A DNA stretch of 64,000 nucleotides from Brevundimonas variabilis. GTDB lineage: Bacteria > Pseudomonadota > Alphaproteobacteria > Caulobacterales > Caulobacteraceae. The position numbers and the translations under genes are program-made. Positions 4,970 to 9,370 of the stretch are shown here, in pieces; the stretch's first letter is position 1, and every line of letters begins with the position of its first letter. The notes beneath the pieces are model-generated. The model worked only from the letters and a program-made list of their open reading frames with translations. It searched no databases and was not told the DNA's origin. The stretch spans positions 62,001 to 126,000 of the forward strand of contig NZ_JACHOR010000004.1 of the NCBI RefSeq assembly GCF_014199945.1. Direction: 5' to 3'.

Positions 4970-6021
4970 TGGTCGATCTCCTTCAGGGCGTTGCGCAGGA
5001 TGTCGCCGACGAGGGCGTCTTCCTTCAGAAAGGCGTCGTGGCCGTACAGGGACGGGGCCTCGACCAGACGCCACAGGTTCGGCAGGCGGGCGGCCAGCTC
5101 GCGGATATCGTCGATGGGAACCAGCCGGTCCGAGTCGAACCCGACCAGGGTGACCGGTGTGCTGATGGCCTCGGGCGACACGGCATGCCGGTCGATCGAG
5201 TCCGACAGCGACAGCCAGCGGGCGGGCGTGGTGTGGGTGCGGTAGGCCTTGCCCCGGGCCGTCAGATATTCGCAGACCGGATAGGCCTGACCGGCGCTGG
5301 CGGGGGCGGTGCTGGCGAAGCGATCGCCGAATTCCTCGGCCGTGCGATAGGTGGTCATGGCCAGTTCGCGGGCGAGGGCGACGCCATCTTCGGGGCGACC
5401 CGCCGCCTGGGCCAGCTGCAGGATGCGGCGCTGGATGCCGCGCCAGGCCGTGGCCTGCGGGTGGGCACGGTGCGCGGCCGAGACGACGACCAGCTGTTCG
5501 GCCCGGCGCGGGAACAGCTCCCCGAACGCCAGGGCGATCATGCCGCCATAGGAACAGCCGACGAAGGCCGACACGGTCTCGAAGCCCAGATGGTCTAGCA
5601 GCAGTCCCAGCAGCCTTGCCTGGTCATGGGTGGTGATCGTGACCGAGGAACCCTGCCCGGCATCGGGGGCATAGTCGAAGGCGAGGACCTGGAAGCGGGA
5701 GAGGTCGATAGGGCCCCGGATCGAGACCGCGCCGGACCACCAGCCCAGGCCGTTGGTCTCGGTCCGGTGCACGAAACGCCCGGCCGAGATCCCGCCGGCC
5801 ACGACGATCAGCGGCGTGCCCTCGCGGCCGTGCAGACGGCCGGTCAGGGTGCGCTGGCCGAGGCGCTCCCCGGACTGGAGGCGGAAGTCGGCGGGAATGT
5901 CGATCGTGATGTCGACGGCGTCGCCCGACCGCTCGCGGCGTGGCTGCGCATAGGCACGGCTCGCCGGGATGGGGCGGAGGCGGGAATCGTCAGAGGTTTT
6001 TGAAGCCAGGGCCAGGGTCAT
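4966..6021 (-). CDS. metX: Homoserine O-succinyltransferase, short MetX type
   Basis: Alpha/beta-hydrolase-fold acyltransferase of 351 residues that commits homoserine to methionine. Seen: nucleophile elbow GCSYGGM with Ser157, an FDSDRLVP segment with the acid near residue 290, and YGHDAFL with the His near residue 325. The short form next to a metB-like gene resembles the MetX proteins shown in some gammaproteobacteria to use succinyl-CoA; acetyl-CoA use cannot be excluded. Upstream lies an S-box aptamer, so expression should fall when SAM is plentiful. The Shine-Dalgarno is weak: an AGGA about 16 bp upstream sits inside a small hairpin, which would suit translational control. First gene of metX-metB. 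Confidence 0.87.
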   Translation of the reverse strand: MTLALASKTSDDSRLRPIPASRAYAQPRRERSGDAVDITIDIPADFRLQSGERLGQRTLTGRLHGREGTPLIVVAGGISAGRFVHRTETNGLGWWSGAVSIRGPIDLSRFQVLAFDYAPDAGQGSSVTITTHDQARLLGLLLDHLGFETVSAFVGCSYGGMIALAFGELFPRRAEQLVVVSAAHRAHPQATAWRGIQRRILQLAQAAGRPEDGVALARELAMTTYRTAEEFGDRFASTAPASAGQAYPVCEYLTARGKAYRTHTTPARWLSLSDSIDRHAVSPEAISTPVTLVGFDSDRLVPIDDIRELAARLPNLWRLVEAPSLYGHDAFLKEDALVGDILRNALKEIDQ

Positions 6022-6097
6022 CGGGTCGTCGCATCGTCCTGCTCAGCAAGACCCCGGTGCGATGACAGATCGTGGAACGTCGCCTCGTCGACGCTCC
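6022..6097 (-). promoter_or_regulatory. Expression platform between SAM aptamer and metX
   Basis: Just after the aptamer an 11-bp hairpin (one G-U pair) occupies 6072-6099 and overlaps the 3' strand of P1 by two bases. A 10-nt stretch at 6113-6122, inside P4, can pair instead with 6062-6071. A third small hairpin (6036-6052) holds the only AGGA before metX. None has a U-tract, so control is more likely translational than by intrinsic termination. This is inference from base pairing only. Confidence 0.5.
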
Positions 6098-6227
6098 ACT
6101 CATCTCTCGCGAGACCTGTCATTTCCGAAGAAATGGGGCGGTCTCTCGCAGGAGTTGGCACCGTTCGGTTGGGACCGATGGTTGCCCCGACGTCAAAGGG
6201 CCTATCCCTCGGTCGGTCTTGATGAGT
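6098..6227 (-). promoter_or_regulatory. SAM-I (S-box) riboswitch aptamer upstream of metX
   Basis: The minus-strand RNA carries the S-box signatures in order: ATCAAGA, GAGGGA and GGCCC of the P2 kink-turn region, GGCAACC, then GGTGCCAACTCC (6151-6162) as J3/4. Helices close correctly: P1 pairs 6221-6227 with 6098-6104 (ACTCATC/GATGAGT), P2 pairs 6212-6216 with 6187-6191, P3 pairs 6174-6178 with 6165-6169, P4 pairs 6140-6145 with 6111-6116. SAM binding should lower metX-metB expression. SAM-II is the class most often seen in alphaproteobacteria, so SAM-I here is notable. A covariance-model scan would settle it. Confidence 0.9.
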
Positions 6228-6408
6228 TTCACTACGTTGCAACTGCGAGAACCGCCGGTCAAGTGCAAAAATTCACCCGTGTTCAGATAAAACCCGCGCC
6301 AAATGAACATTCCATTACGCCTCATGTGCACGGCGCGCAAAAAATGTGCATGACGGGGGTTGACGAATGGAAGCTCTGCCGACACCTTCAGGTTCGATTT
6401 TCACAGGA
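6228..6408. other. Divergent metX / thr control region
   Basis: No credible gene lies here apart from an alternative upstream start of the thr leader peptide at 6367 (in frame, preceded by GGGGG). The metX promoter occupies the left end. For the thr transcript the best candidate -35 is TTGACG at 6360-6365, but no convincing -10 follows. The segment is more AT-rich than its surroundings, including an A-run near 6340. Reading frames crossing it show no family features. Confidence 0.5.
6234..6262 (-). promoter_or_regulatory. Possible promoter for the SAM riboswitch-metX transcript
   Basis: TTGACC (6262-6257) is followed after 17 bp by CAACGT (6239-6234). The predicted start falls near 6227, exactly the first base of riboswitch P1. 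The -35 is good and the -10 poor for a housekeeping sigma; the coincidence with the aptamer start is the main support. Confidence 0.4.
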
Positions 6409-6561
6409 ATGACGCTCGTGTCCCGTTTCGGCAGCATCGCCGGTTCGACCTTCTCCGCAGCCGGCTCGGCGCGGACCAGCACCCGTGTCACCCCCCTCAC
6501 CACGCTCACGACCATCGGCGGTATGACCATCACCGGCCCCTTGCGGGCGGGGACAGGTTAG
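6409..6561 (+). CDS. thrL: Threonine-rich leader peptide (thr attenuator)
   Basis: Fifty-codon regulatory peptide whose translation, not its product, matters. Codons from 6481 to 6534 include eight Thr and two Ile within 18 codons (pattern TTLTTIGGMTIT), much as E. coli ThrL is dominated by Thr and Ile. It is followed by a rho-independent terminator and then the aspartokinase-homoserine dehydrogenase gene. The last codons carry CGGGCGGG (6544-6551), perfectly complementary to the 5' side of the terminator (6595-6602): a classic antiterminator arm. Ribosomes stalled on Thr codons would leave this arm free; ribosomes reaching the stop would cover it. The ATG at 6409 has AGGA almost abutting it; an in-frame ATG at 6367 is the alternative start. 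Confidence 0.82.
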   Translation: MTLVSRFGSIAGSTFSAAGSARTSTRVTPLTTLTTIGGMTITGPLRAGTG

Positions 6562-6593
6562 CGCGCGCCGGACAGGCCAAAACGCAAACCCAG

Positions 6594-6626
6594 ACCCGCC
6601 CGGACCCCTCCGGAGCGGGTTTTTTC
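6594..6626 (+). terminator. thr attenuator terminator
   Basis: Stem ACCCGC (6594-6599) pairs with GCGGGT (6615-6620), extended by CCGGA (6600-6604) with TCCGG (6609-6613), one bulged A and a CCCC loop, followed by six T. It lies between the leader stop and the thrA-like start, so read-through is needed for expression. Its 5' side pairs alternatively with 6544-6551. Confidence 0.9.
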
Positions 6627-6673
6627 TTGCCCGAAATCCAGCCCCTTCATCTTCCAGTCCTGAAACGAACCCC

Positions 6674-8425
6674 ATGCCCTACTCAGCTGCCCACCTTGCC
6701 GTCGTCCCGTCCGAACCGCTGAAACCTGGCTCTGCAGCCAGCCCGGCTCCGGATGTCGTGGTGCTCAAATTCGGATCGTCGATCCTGAAGTCCGCGGCCG
6801 ATGCGCCGGTGGTCGCGTCGGAGATCTATGGCCATGTCCGCGCGGGCCGGAAGGTCGTCGCCGTCGTCTCGGCCTTTGCCGGGCACACGGACCGCCTTCT
6901 GGCCGAGGCCCGGTCGCTGGGGCTGGATCACGAGAACGATCTGCTGCCCGGCTATGTCGCGCTGGGTGAGGAAAAGGCGGCGGCCTTCTCGGCCATCGCC
7001 TGCGACCGGATCGGTCTGGGCGCCGTGGCCCTGTCGGTGCGGGAACTGGGGATCGTGGCGGACGGACCGCTGCAACATGCCCATCCCTGCGACCTGCGCG
7101 GCGACGGCCTGCGACAGGCGCTGGAGCAGCATCAGGTCGTCGTCGTCCCGGGGTTCGGGGCGGTGCGGCCCGATGGCCGGGTGGCCCTGCTCGGGCGAGG
7201 CGGTTCGGACCTGACGGCCGTCTTCATCGCGGCCGAGCTGGGCCTGAAGCGGGTGCGGCTGGTGAAGGATGTCGATGGTCTCTACGACCGCGATCCGGCC
7301 TCGGCCTCGGGCAAGCCGCTGCGCTATCGCCGGGCCTCCTGGGACGATGCCCGTCGCCACGGCGGGGCGCTGGTCCAGCACGGTGCCATCGACATGGCGC
7401 ACCAGCGGGGTGTCGAGATCGAGGTCGCGGCGCTTGGCCGGGCCGACTGTACGGTGGTTGGGGATCATTCCGCCCCTCCGGGACCCTCGGTTCCCGATGC
7501 TCCGGTGCGGGTCGCCATCGCCGGCTGCGGTGTGGTCGGGGGTGGCCTTCTGGCCCGTCTGCTGGTCGATCCCCGGTTCCAGGTCGTCGGCGTCCTGGTG
7601 CGGGATCCGCGCAAGGCCCGCGACGTCGATGCCCCGGTCAATCTGTTCACCAGCGACCGCGAGGCCCTGCTGAACCAGAAGCCCGACCTTCTGCTCGAGG
7701 CCCTGTCCGAGGGTGGTGCCGGGCACGACCTGATCCGCTGTGCGCTCGAGCGCGGCATCGACGTGGCCAGCGCCAACAAACAGGCAATCAGCCGCGACCC
7801 GGCCGGACTGGCCGCCCTGGCCCAGGCCAGCGGTGCGCGTCTGGCCTATTCGGCGGCGGTCGGCGGGGGTGCCCCGATGATCGAGACCCTGCGCGCCGCC
7901 CGGGCGGCCGGGCCCGTGGCGGGCTTCGAGGCCGTCCTGAACGGCACGGTGAATTTCATGCTGGGCCGTCTGGAGGCCGGAGCCGATTTTGCCGATGCCC
8001 TGGCTGACGCCCGCGTCGCCGGCTTCGCCGAGGAAGACCCGTCTTCCGACCTGGAAGGTCGCGATTCCGCCGCCAAGGTCCGCCTGCTGGCGTTCGAAGC
8101 GTTCGGCGAAACGCCCGCCGAGGCCGATGTGCCGTGCGATGTGCTGTCGGATGCCTTTGTGGTGTCCGGGCCGGTCCGCCAGATCGGTGCCTGTCACCGG
8201 GTGGACGGGGCGCTGAAGTCGTCTGTCAGGCTTGACGGCGCGCTTTCCGACCCGCTCTTTGCCCGCCTCAGAGGGGAGCGCAACGCCTTGAAGGTCTACG
8301 GTGAGGATGGTCGGGTCTGGTCGTGCAAGGGTCGCGGCGCGGGTCGCTGGCCGACGACCGAAAGCGTTCTGTCCGATGTCGCCGACATTGTCCGGGCGCG
8401 ACACGCCGTGCTCGGCCACCACTGA
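6674..8425 (+). CDS. thrA: Fused aspartokinase-homoserine dehydrogenase lacking ACT domains
   Basis: Bifunctional enzyme for the first and third steps from aspartate to homoserine. Residues 27-265 are an aspartokinase (amino-acid kinase fold: VLKFGSS at 30-35, GRGGSD at 174-179, VDGLYDRDP around 200-208). Residues 278-583 are homoserine dehydrogenase: Rossmann AGCGVVGGG (283-291), SANK (366-369), GGGAPMI, LNGTVNF, and DLEGRDSAAK with catalytic Lys468. At 583 residues it is about 240 shorter than E. coli ThrA (820): the paired ACT regulatory linker between the domains is missing, the kinase running into the dehydrogenase through about 12 residues. Loss of threonine feedback is expected but inferred. 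It lies behind the thr attenuator, and thrB starts at the next base. Confidence 0.88.
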   Translation: MPYSAAHLAVVPSEPLKPGSAASPAPDVVVLKFGSSILKSAADAPVVASEIYGHVRAGRKVVAVVSAFAGHTDRLLAEARSLGLDHENDLLPGYVALGEEKAAAFSAIACDRIGLGAVALSVRELGIVADGPLQHAHPCDLRGDGLRQALEQHQVVVVPGFGAVRPDGRVALLGRGGSDLTAVFIAAELGLKRVRLVKDVDGLYDRDPASASGKPLRYRRASWDDARRHGGALVQHGAIDMAHQRGVEIEVAALGRADCTVVGDHSAPPGPSVPDAPVRVAIAGCGVVGGGLLARLLVDPRFQVVGVLVRDPRKARDVDAPVNLFTSDREALLNQKPDLLLEALSEGGAGHDLIRCALERGIDVASANKQAISRDPAGLAALAQASGARLAYSAAVGGGAPMIETLRAARAAGPVAGFEAVLNGTVNFMLGRLEAGADFADALADARVAGFAEEDPSSDLEGRDSAAKVRLLAFEAFGETPAEADVPCDVLSDAFVVSGPVRQIGACHRVDGALKSSVRLDGALSDPLFARLRGERNALKVYGEDGRVWSCKGRGAGRWPTTESVLSDVADIVRARHAVLGHH

Positions 8426-9370
8426 ATGGCGGTCTTCACCCCGGTCTCTGACGATCAGGCACGCGCCTGGCTGCAGGGCCATTCGGTCGGCGAATTCGTG
8501 TCGCTGCACCCGATCGCCGAGGGGGTGGAGAACACCAACTACCGGCTGGAGACCGCGACGGGCCGGTATGTCCTGACCCTGTTCGAGGGACGGACGGATG
8601 CGGCGTCGCTGCCCTTCTGTCTGGGTCTGACCGACCATCTGGCCGACCGGGGCTTTCCGGCTCCGCGTCCGGTGCGGGACCGGTCGGGCCAGTGGCTGGG
8701 CCGGCTGAACGACCGGGCCTGCGCCGTGATCGAATGGCGGGCCGGGGCCTGGCTGCGGAGCCCGACCTTGGCGGATCAGGCGACGGCAGGCGCGGTGCTG
8801 GCGCGCCTGCACCGGGACGCCGCCGGGTTTTCAGTGCCGCGCGCCAATCCGGTCGGACCGGTCGCCTGGCGGGCCCTGGCCGACCGTTGCGCCACTGCGG
8901 CAACGGGTGCGGACCGCGCCATTCTCGACACGGTCGAGGCGGCGCTGGCCCGCCTGGGCGATCCGTTCGCCTCGGACCTGCCAAGGGGACCGATCCATGC
9001 GGACTATTTCCCCGACAATGTCCTGTTCGAGGGTGGCGAGGTGTCCGGCGTCATCGACTTCTATTTCGGCTGCGTCGACGCCCTCGTTTATGATCTGGCC
9101 ATCGCCCTGAGCGCCTGGGGATTCGATGGCGAGGGGCGGGAAATCCCCGGAGCGGTCGAGGCGTTCCGGCGCGGCTATGAGTCCATTCGGCCCCTGTCAC
9201 CGGCCGAGGCGCAGGCCCTGCCAAGGCTCGGCGAGGCGGCGGCGCTGCGGTTCACCCTGACCCGGCTGCACGACCGGATCTTCCACGACCCGACCAAGCT
9301 GGTGACGCCCAAGGACCCGGCCGCCTTCGTGAGGCGGCTGGACTACTGGCGGCTGGCGGAGGCCGTCTGA
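8426..9370 (+). CDS. thrB: Homoserine kinase, APH-like type (ThrB)
   Basis: Phosphorylates homoserine to O-phosphohomoserine for threonine synthesis. It belongs to the aminoglycoside-phosphotransferase-like homoserine kinases of many alphaproteobacteria, not the GHMP family of E. coli. Seen: EGVENTNYRL near residues 32-41 (substrate loop typical of the type), the catalytic HADYFPDN at about 191-198 and the metal-binding GVIDFYF around 210. Length 314 fits. The ATG directly follows the TGA of the thrA-like gene, so the two form a coupled operon under the attenuator. Its last 28 bp overlap the end of the convergent thrC. Confidence 0.92.
   Translation: MAVFTPVSDDQARAWLQGHSVGEFVSLHPIAEGVENTNYRLETATGRYVLTLFEGRTDAASLPFCLGLTDHLADRGFPAPRPVRDRSGQWLGRLNDRACAVIEWRAGAWLRSPTLADQATAGAVLARLHRDAAGFSVPRANPVGPVAWRALADRCATAATGADRAILDTVEAALARLGDPFASDLPRGPIHADYFPDNVLFEGGEVSGVIDFYFGCVDALVYDLAIALSAWGFDGEGREIPGAVEAFRRGYESIRPLSPAEAQALPRLGEAAALRFTLTRLHDRIFHDPTKLVTPKDPAAFVRRLDYWRLAEAV

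Follow-up and report, generated by a model that had tools for sequence, protein, structure and literature searches.

Does the threonine operon of Brevundimonas variabilis carry an attenuator of the kind known from E. coli thrL? The question is raised by a stretch of 64,000 nucleotides (the window, 68% G+C), in which an open reading frame (ORF) rich in threonine codons precedes the gene of a fused aspartokinase-homoserine dehydrogenase (AK-HSD). A 2013 survey with Rfam models suggests that amino-acid attenuators may originate in Gammaproteobacteria, with very few transfers (PMC3766115). The original prediction, made from the letters of the window, described here a complete attenuator outside that class. 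The observation on which it was based is confirmed, and the analysis reported below indicates that the element is very probably a ribosome-mediated transcription attenuator of the thrA(AK-HSD)-thrB operon.

Results

The locus and its genes

The gene that the attenuator would control (6674-8425, plus strand) encodes a protein of 583 aa in which Pfam recognises the domains AA_kinase (28-249), NAD_binding_3 (284-392) and Homoserine_dh (401-569) only. The ThrA of E. coli has ACT domains between its kinase and homoserine dehydrogenase parts; no ACT domain was found by the Pfam search in the B. variabilis protein. It also scores below the cut-off of every NCBIfam model among the matches listed (25 of 29). 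The next gene is a thrB-type homoserine kinase (8426-9370, plus strand; NCBIfam TIGR00938, 317.6 bits, cut-off 255.9), which is probably co-transcribed with AK-HSD as an operon, and thrC lies behind thrB in convergent orientation. AK-HSD and thrB, both genes for threonine synthesis, are thus placed downstream of the element that would regulate them. A second, separate full-length aspartokinase is present in this genome (G000) at C1:534801-536042. There is only one homoserine dehydrogenase (HSD) match at E <= 1e-30 in G000, so that AK-HSD probably feeds methionine synthesis too.

The metX and metZ-like genes diverge from AK-HSD and are found behind a SAM-I riboswitch on the minus strand (6097-6228; RF00162, 77 bits, gathering score 44.4), outside the attenuator. 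This alphaproteobacterial SAM-I (S-box) riboswitch was observed at 14 of 15 Brevundimonas loci and at 2 of the 3 loci from other genera that were searched. PMC4239095 names SAM-II for alphaproteobacteria. As a separate observation, the AK part and the HSD part each match a stretch of their own in Brevundimonas diminuta ATCC 11568 (L105 and L166), where the fusion may be split or frameshifted.

The leader peptide and its signals

A leader peptide of 50 codons had been predicted. Reading from the ATG at 6409 does give 50 codons, followed by the TAG at 6559-6561; the start conserved in relatives, however, is the GTG at 6418, from which the leader ORF comprises 47 codons plus TAG (6418-6561, plus strand). 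The ATG at 6409 was rejected as a start since it is not conserved: an in-frame ATG occurs there only in this genome and at one other locus, L031, with an AK-HSD 98% identical to the present one. Among the 85 Brevundimonas leaders analysed, 84 have an in-frame start located 55-67 nt 3' of a TTGAC motif, with GTG in 73, TTG in 10 and ATG in 1. The GTG and TTG starts are found 55-64 nt past TTGAC in 83/85 leaders, and the single ATG at 67 nt; L045 has no in-frame start at that distance. In B. variabilis, the -35-like TTGACG (6360-6365, plus strand) stands 58 nt before the conserved start codon, and the -10 region would be at about 6383-6388, where the match is poor. The AGGA at 6405-6408 (plus strand), 9 nt before the GTG, is a probable Shine-Dalgarno sequence, and AGG, GGA or GAG is found 5' of the start in 79/84 leaders.

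The control codons occupy positions 6481-6534 of the plus strand (TRVTPLTTLTTIGGMTIT). The eight Thr and two Ile codons that had been counted within 18 codons are present, together with one Met codon.

Terminator and antiterminator

Four segments of the plus strand can be recognised in the leader RNA. Segment 2, CGGGCGGG (6544-6551), is contained in the codons for Arg-Ala-Gly, and the 8-bp complementarity reported for it is exact, its partner being segment 3, CCCGCCCG (6595-6602), which is common to the antiterminator and the terminator. Segment 1 (6533-6539) is a protector arm that pairs with segment 2. The rho-independent terminator that was expected after the leader corresponds to the 3:4 hairpin with U6 (6592-6625): in the fold of 6585-6640, the stem-loop at 6592-6622, with the U-run at 6620-6625, has a free energy of -22.6 kcal/mol (z -4.2), and 0/200 shuffles are as good. 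The competing antiterminator, obtained in the fold of 6541-6610, reaches -32.5 kcal/mol (z -2.2; 6/200 shuffles as good) and includes the inner stems GGUU:AACC, GCG:CGC and GCC:GGC (6556-6590). A consensus scan of 6000-6800 called neither a promoter nor a terminator, so it missed the folded terminator at 6592-6622; we take the thresholds of the scanner for stem, spacing and -10 to be responsible.

An element with alternative structures in a 5' leader might instead be a metabolite riboswitch or a T-box. We consider this highly improbable. Within the window, no Rfam family other than the SAM riboswitch, which is on the opposite strand, reaches its gathering score, and the best match in 6300-6700 has E 0.14, far below the gathering score, results by which this reading was ruled out; moreover, neither kind of element would explain the Thr codons.

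Conservation in Brevundimonas

In total, 131 Brevundimonas genomes were searched, and 116 of them gave a match at E <= 1e-60. By the count from the match listing, 90/131 have the fused AK-HSD, and the rest have a stand-alone HSD match or none. The analysis covered 87 of the 90 fused-gene loci, from which L005, which a contig start cuts short, and L104, which is leaderless, were excluded, leaving 85 leaders. L104 (G197) has no leader despite a complete upstream region of AK-HSD, and is the only such case among the genomes of the genus that were examined. The leader frame was located by its Thr content, frames ending in Ala-Gly being scored higher, except in L031 and L043, where it was set by the segment 2 motif; the Thr richness is therefore partly selected.

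Close relatives had been named as the place where conservation should be sought. There, Thr-rich control codons, the stop codon, the terminator and the 2:3 pairing are kept in all 85 leaders analysed. The aligned leaders have invariant nucleotides in both arms and a variable spacer. This pattern refutes the idea of a Thr-rich ORF that lies by chance near a terminator in GC-rich DNA, which we regard as next to impossible, although an 8-base G+C complement alone is not rare in a window of this composition.

A covariance model, R1, was built from the 79 unique leaders; its E-values are rough. It matches 88/90 fused-gene genomes at E <= 8.4e-14, with 87 matches adjoining the gene and one, in G102, at a contig edge. 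The two genomes missed are G197, the leaderless one, and G201, where a contig edge interrupts the gene. Matches outside the training set were found beside the gene in G181 and G222, on the edge of another contig in G102 and as a second copy in G193. The 41 genomes of the genus without the fused gene gave no strong match, which also speaks against chance, and one weak match (G245, 6.9e-5). Given that R1 was trained on 79 of these leaders, its matches speak for a link with the gene more than for an independent discovery.

These data also bear on a reading in which the Thr-rich ORF is the gene of a small protein, or belongs to a short RNA acting in trans, the terminator being the end of a small gene and the promoter of the thr operon lying downstream. 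Released leader RNAs can act again, as is described for the trp leader of Sinorhizobium, a dual-function sRNA, in PMC10117765, and the consensus scan of 6000-6800, which matched no promoter anywhere, is uninformative on a downstream one. However, the peptide differs between clades everywhere but in the control codons and at its end, segments 2 and 3 match each other in 85/85 leaders, and the element accompanies AK-HSD across the genomes of the genus, as the R1 matches indicate. We therefore consider this reading unlikely, and the comparison of sequences and the model together support a Thr attenuator that is conserved with its gene across Brevundimonas.

Competing folds and covariation

Computed folds of the 85 leaders are compatible with such an attenuator. 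When only the RNA that a stalled ribosome would leave free is folded, the 2:3 pairs form before segment 4 exists in 85/85 leaders. A 1:2 hairpin with at least 3 pairs is possible in 85/85 (mean -10.0 kcal/mol), and a hairpin followed by at least 3 T is also found in every leader. With the ribosome placed at the stop codon, the terminator takes up at least 5 of the 6 bases of segment 3 in 83/85, while L047 and L051 have a shifted hairpin that uses half of segment 3. The terminator and the 2:3 duplex are similar in mean strength (-22.9 vs -20.6 kcal/mol). For the stalled state with complete RNA at equilibrium, 2:3 is kept (p > 0.5) in 78/85 leaders. The terminator is favoured in the other seven (L013, L095, L098, L099 and L101-L103), in which kinetics would be needed.

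The inner loops of the antiterminator fold more stably than their own dinucleotide shuffles do on average in 45/45 non-redundant cases (mean z -1.9; 41 below -1), and all 45 have a closing stem of at least 3 pairs. The letters of the inner stem vary by clade, for example GGUU:AACC, GUUU:GAAC and CGG:CCG. RNAalifold on the antiterminator recovered only 6 pairs, the inner stems being misplaced by the sequence alignment. Compensatory changes had been anticipated in both helices. The terminator has one such pair (87:118), which among 79 leaders is C-G in 40 and A-U in 21, with no pair in the other 18, but the outer 2:3 helix has none, because it is nearly invariant: a change on both sides occurs in 0/6 consensus pairs.

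Codon choice in the segments was compared with that in 37 ORFs of the window. In segment 2, Ala is encoded by GCG in 83/83 cases (25% in the background) and Arg by codons ending in GG in 73/73 (38%); in segment 1, Pro is CCC in 70/70 (39%). The choice for Ala, Arg and Pro fits the helices, with counts that are phylogenetically non-independent. For Gly in segment 2, the third base of the codon is G or A in 83/83 (25%), for which the 8-bp helix gives no explanation. In a synonymous-shuffle control with 52 unique leader/arm pairs, whose codon table came from the longest ORFs, with wrong frames possible, p <= 0.05 was reached for 2:3 in 10 pairs and for 1:2 in 0.

Amino acids that may be sensed

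Codons 9-20 before the stop of the 85 leaders comprise 47.4% Thr, 12.4% Ile, 7.6% Met, 17.3% Gly and 0.1% Lys, compared with 5.6%, 4.9%, 2.2%, 10.2% and 2.2%, respectively, in the 37 ORFs of the window. Thr occurs there in 85/85 leaders, Ile in 79/85 and Met in 63/85. Thr is clearly the signal. Threonine, isoleucine and methionine are all end products made from homoserine, so that three-way sensing would suit a sole HSD. The same attenuator would then sense Thr, Ile and Met, and methionine starvation would likewise stall the ribosome and open the operon. We hold this extension to be possible, with the balance somewhat against it.

In its favour, Met and Ile are enriched 3.5-fold and 2.5-fold in the control region, and the 63/85 leaders with Met compare with 23% expected per leader by chance. 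When the leaders are grouped into 21 clusters at 85% identity, Met is found in some member of 20 and in all members of 17. The 22 gammaproteobacterial leaders over the cut-off of RF00506 contain 2.7% Met, in 6/22 leaders, in a 12-codon window that lies nearer the stop. The single HSD match of G000, with the same enzyme probably feeding Met, points in the same direction, and Met control was reportedly predicted by Vitreschak et al. in 2004 for the single thrA of Pasteurellales.

On the other hand, the commonest Met, at codon 8 before the stop (51/85), belongs to the 1:2 helix, other clades have GGC or Thr codons in its place, and a stall at this codon would cover part of segment 2. The finding of Met in 85/85 leaders was set aside because it includes this codon. 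Gly is not a product of the pathway and yet is enriched 1.7-fold, so enrichment alone is no proof of sensing. Furthermore, Met is one mutation away from the Thr codon ACG and from Ile, and metX has its own SAM riboswitch.

Searches in other taxa

AK-HSD fusions of other genera of the family, with 38-52% identity, form a separate observation: no Thr-rich leader (6 Thr in 20 codons) was found at the 17 loci scanned (L014-L030). With a scan for 6 Thr/Met/Ile in 14 codons, no leader was found before 10 stand-alone HSD genes of Brevundimonas or before the asd gene of G000; nor was one found before 9 HSD genes from five other genera (G014 is also among L014-L030). The two matches of the Thr/Met/Ile scan (L247 and L260) were rejected as ends of ordinary genes.

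R1 gave 13 strong matches over 149 genomes of the family, all of them in Brevundimonas, and 3 weak ones. Two of the weak matches were discarded as terminators after an ordinary gene. The third (L266:280-560, in G081, from another genus of the family) contains a small ORF (sORF) ending in MTTTMTMITPCQTGPGRTRAR and followed by a terminator-like hairpin; the downstream gene encodes a 103-aa protein with no Pfam or NCBIfam match over cut-off. It is possible that this sORF is a Thr/Met/Ile leader.

Over 289 genomes of the class, R1 gave 8 weak matches besides G000. Six look like ordinary terminators or chance and were discarded, and two precede asd and are leaders with Thr and Lys codons. From the 140 genomes with an asd match, 30 loci were taken, and a Thr/Lys-rich sORF was found before asd in 6/30 (L212, L213, L215, L219, L220 and L225). 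These leaders span four other alphaproteobacterial families, and each of the six genomes has two asd matches, except G686, which has one. The end of the sORF is complementary to a downstream arm, as judged by pairing without a shuffle control, and a hairpin with a U-run is present in three of the leaders only (L212, L213 and L215). They resemble the Brevundimonas leaders in the Thr-rich sORF and in the last codons that are complementary to a downstream arm, and differ from them in combining Thr with Lys codons and in preceding asd.

Discussion

We propose that RNA polymerase would transcribe the leader while a ribosome translates the peptide of 47 codons. If charged tRNA-Thr is scarce (also tRNA-Ile, and possibly tRNA-Met), the ribosome would stall at 6481-6534 and cover segment 1, with segment 2 staying free. 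Segments 2 and 3 could then form the long antiterminator hairpin, by which the terminator would be blocked and the operon read. With plentiful charged tRNA, the ribosome would reach the TAG at 6559 and cover segment 2, allowing the 3:4 terminator to form. In the absence of translation, the 1:2 hairpin would sequester segment 2, and termination should be favoured too. The folds, the anatomy and its conservation come from computation, and the stalling, the footprint of the ribosome, the termination in vivo and the physiological signal are what we infer from them. By this mechanism, the cell probably lowers the pathway when threonine is plentiful.

The less ordinary aspects of the locus are the possible Met input, the SAM-I riboswitch as a partner and the enzyme without ACT. 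We tentatively suggest, as a view that we hold to be rather improbable, that two RNA switches placed back to back govern the homoserine node in Brevundimonas, a Thr/Ile/Met attenuator on the ACT-less AK-HSD and SAM-I on metX-metZ, with RNA control replacing allostery and with an attenuator independent of the gammaproteobacterial thrL. The data also suggest that control codons follow the branch point of the enzyme. Finding a genus-wide Thr attenuator in Caulobacteraceae that is invisible to the Rfam model, together with Thr/Lys leaders before asd in alphaproteobacteria, suggests that such elements escape surveys relying on a single model. The 85 leaders (79 unique, aligned) can be used for an Rfam family and for asking about Met sensing.

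The element was thought to be possibly undescribed. No description of it was found in the open-licence papers searched; a related Thr/Lys leader of Sinorhizobium is, however, in print. PMC10117765 reports SEP5 of Sinorhizobium meliloti, whose translation was detected and which is proposed there as a possible leader peptide conserved only in Sinorhizobium. SEP5 shares with the present leader its alphaproteobacterial origin, the cluster of Thr codons in a sORF and the position in the 5'-UTR of an aspartate-pathway gene; unlike that leader, SEP5 has six Thr and three Lys codons and precedes a gene named aspartate dehydrogenase (PMC10117765).

The Rfam model of the gammaproteobacterial element, RF00506 (Thr_leader), gave no match at E <= 10 in 6300-6700, which places the present leader below its gathering threshold. 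Over 398 genomes of the phylum, 136 had a match at E <= 0.001, most of them below the cut-off, and 22 passed it, all outside the class. In this sample, the genus, family, order and class contain no match over the cut-off; some weaker matches occur in the class, and none in G000. One of the class members with a match (L202) was rejected as not being a Thr leader.

The Thr leaders of Pasteurellales are also gammaproteobacterial: their single thrA was reportedly predicted by Vitreschak et al. in 2004 to be controlled by Thr, Ile and Met. The gammaproteobacterial leaders over the RF00506 cut-off contain 50% Thr and 32% Ile in the 12-codon window nearer the stop.

The logic of E. coli thrL, to which the element had been likened, is borne out by an E. 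coli-type thrL (L173), whose final codons hold the antiterminator arm (GGTGCGGGC against GCCCGCACC in L173, -27 kcal/mol), the layout seen in Brevundimonas. Both have a leader peptide rich in Thr and Ile, with ACC as the main Thr codon, and the terminator of E. coli thrL, like that of Brevundimonas, precedes an AK-HSD gene. Unlike E. coli thrL, which has 21 codons, the Brevundimonas leader has 47, starts with GTG or TTG and contains more Met; its AK-HSD is without ACT and is accompanied by a divergent SAM-I riboswitch. Taken together, our results indicate that the Brevundimonas element probably works like thrL and is outside the RF00506 sequence family.
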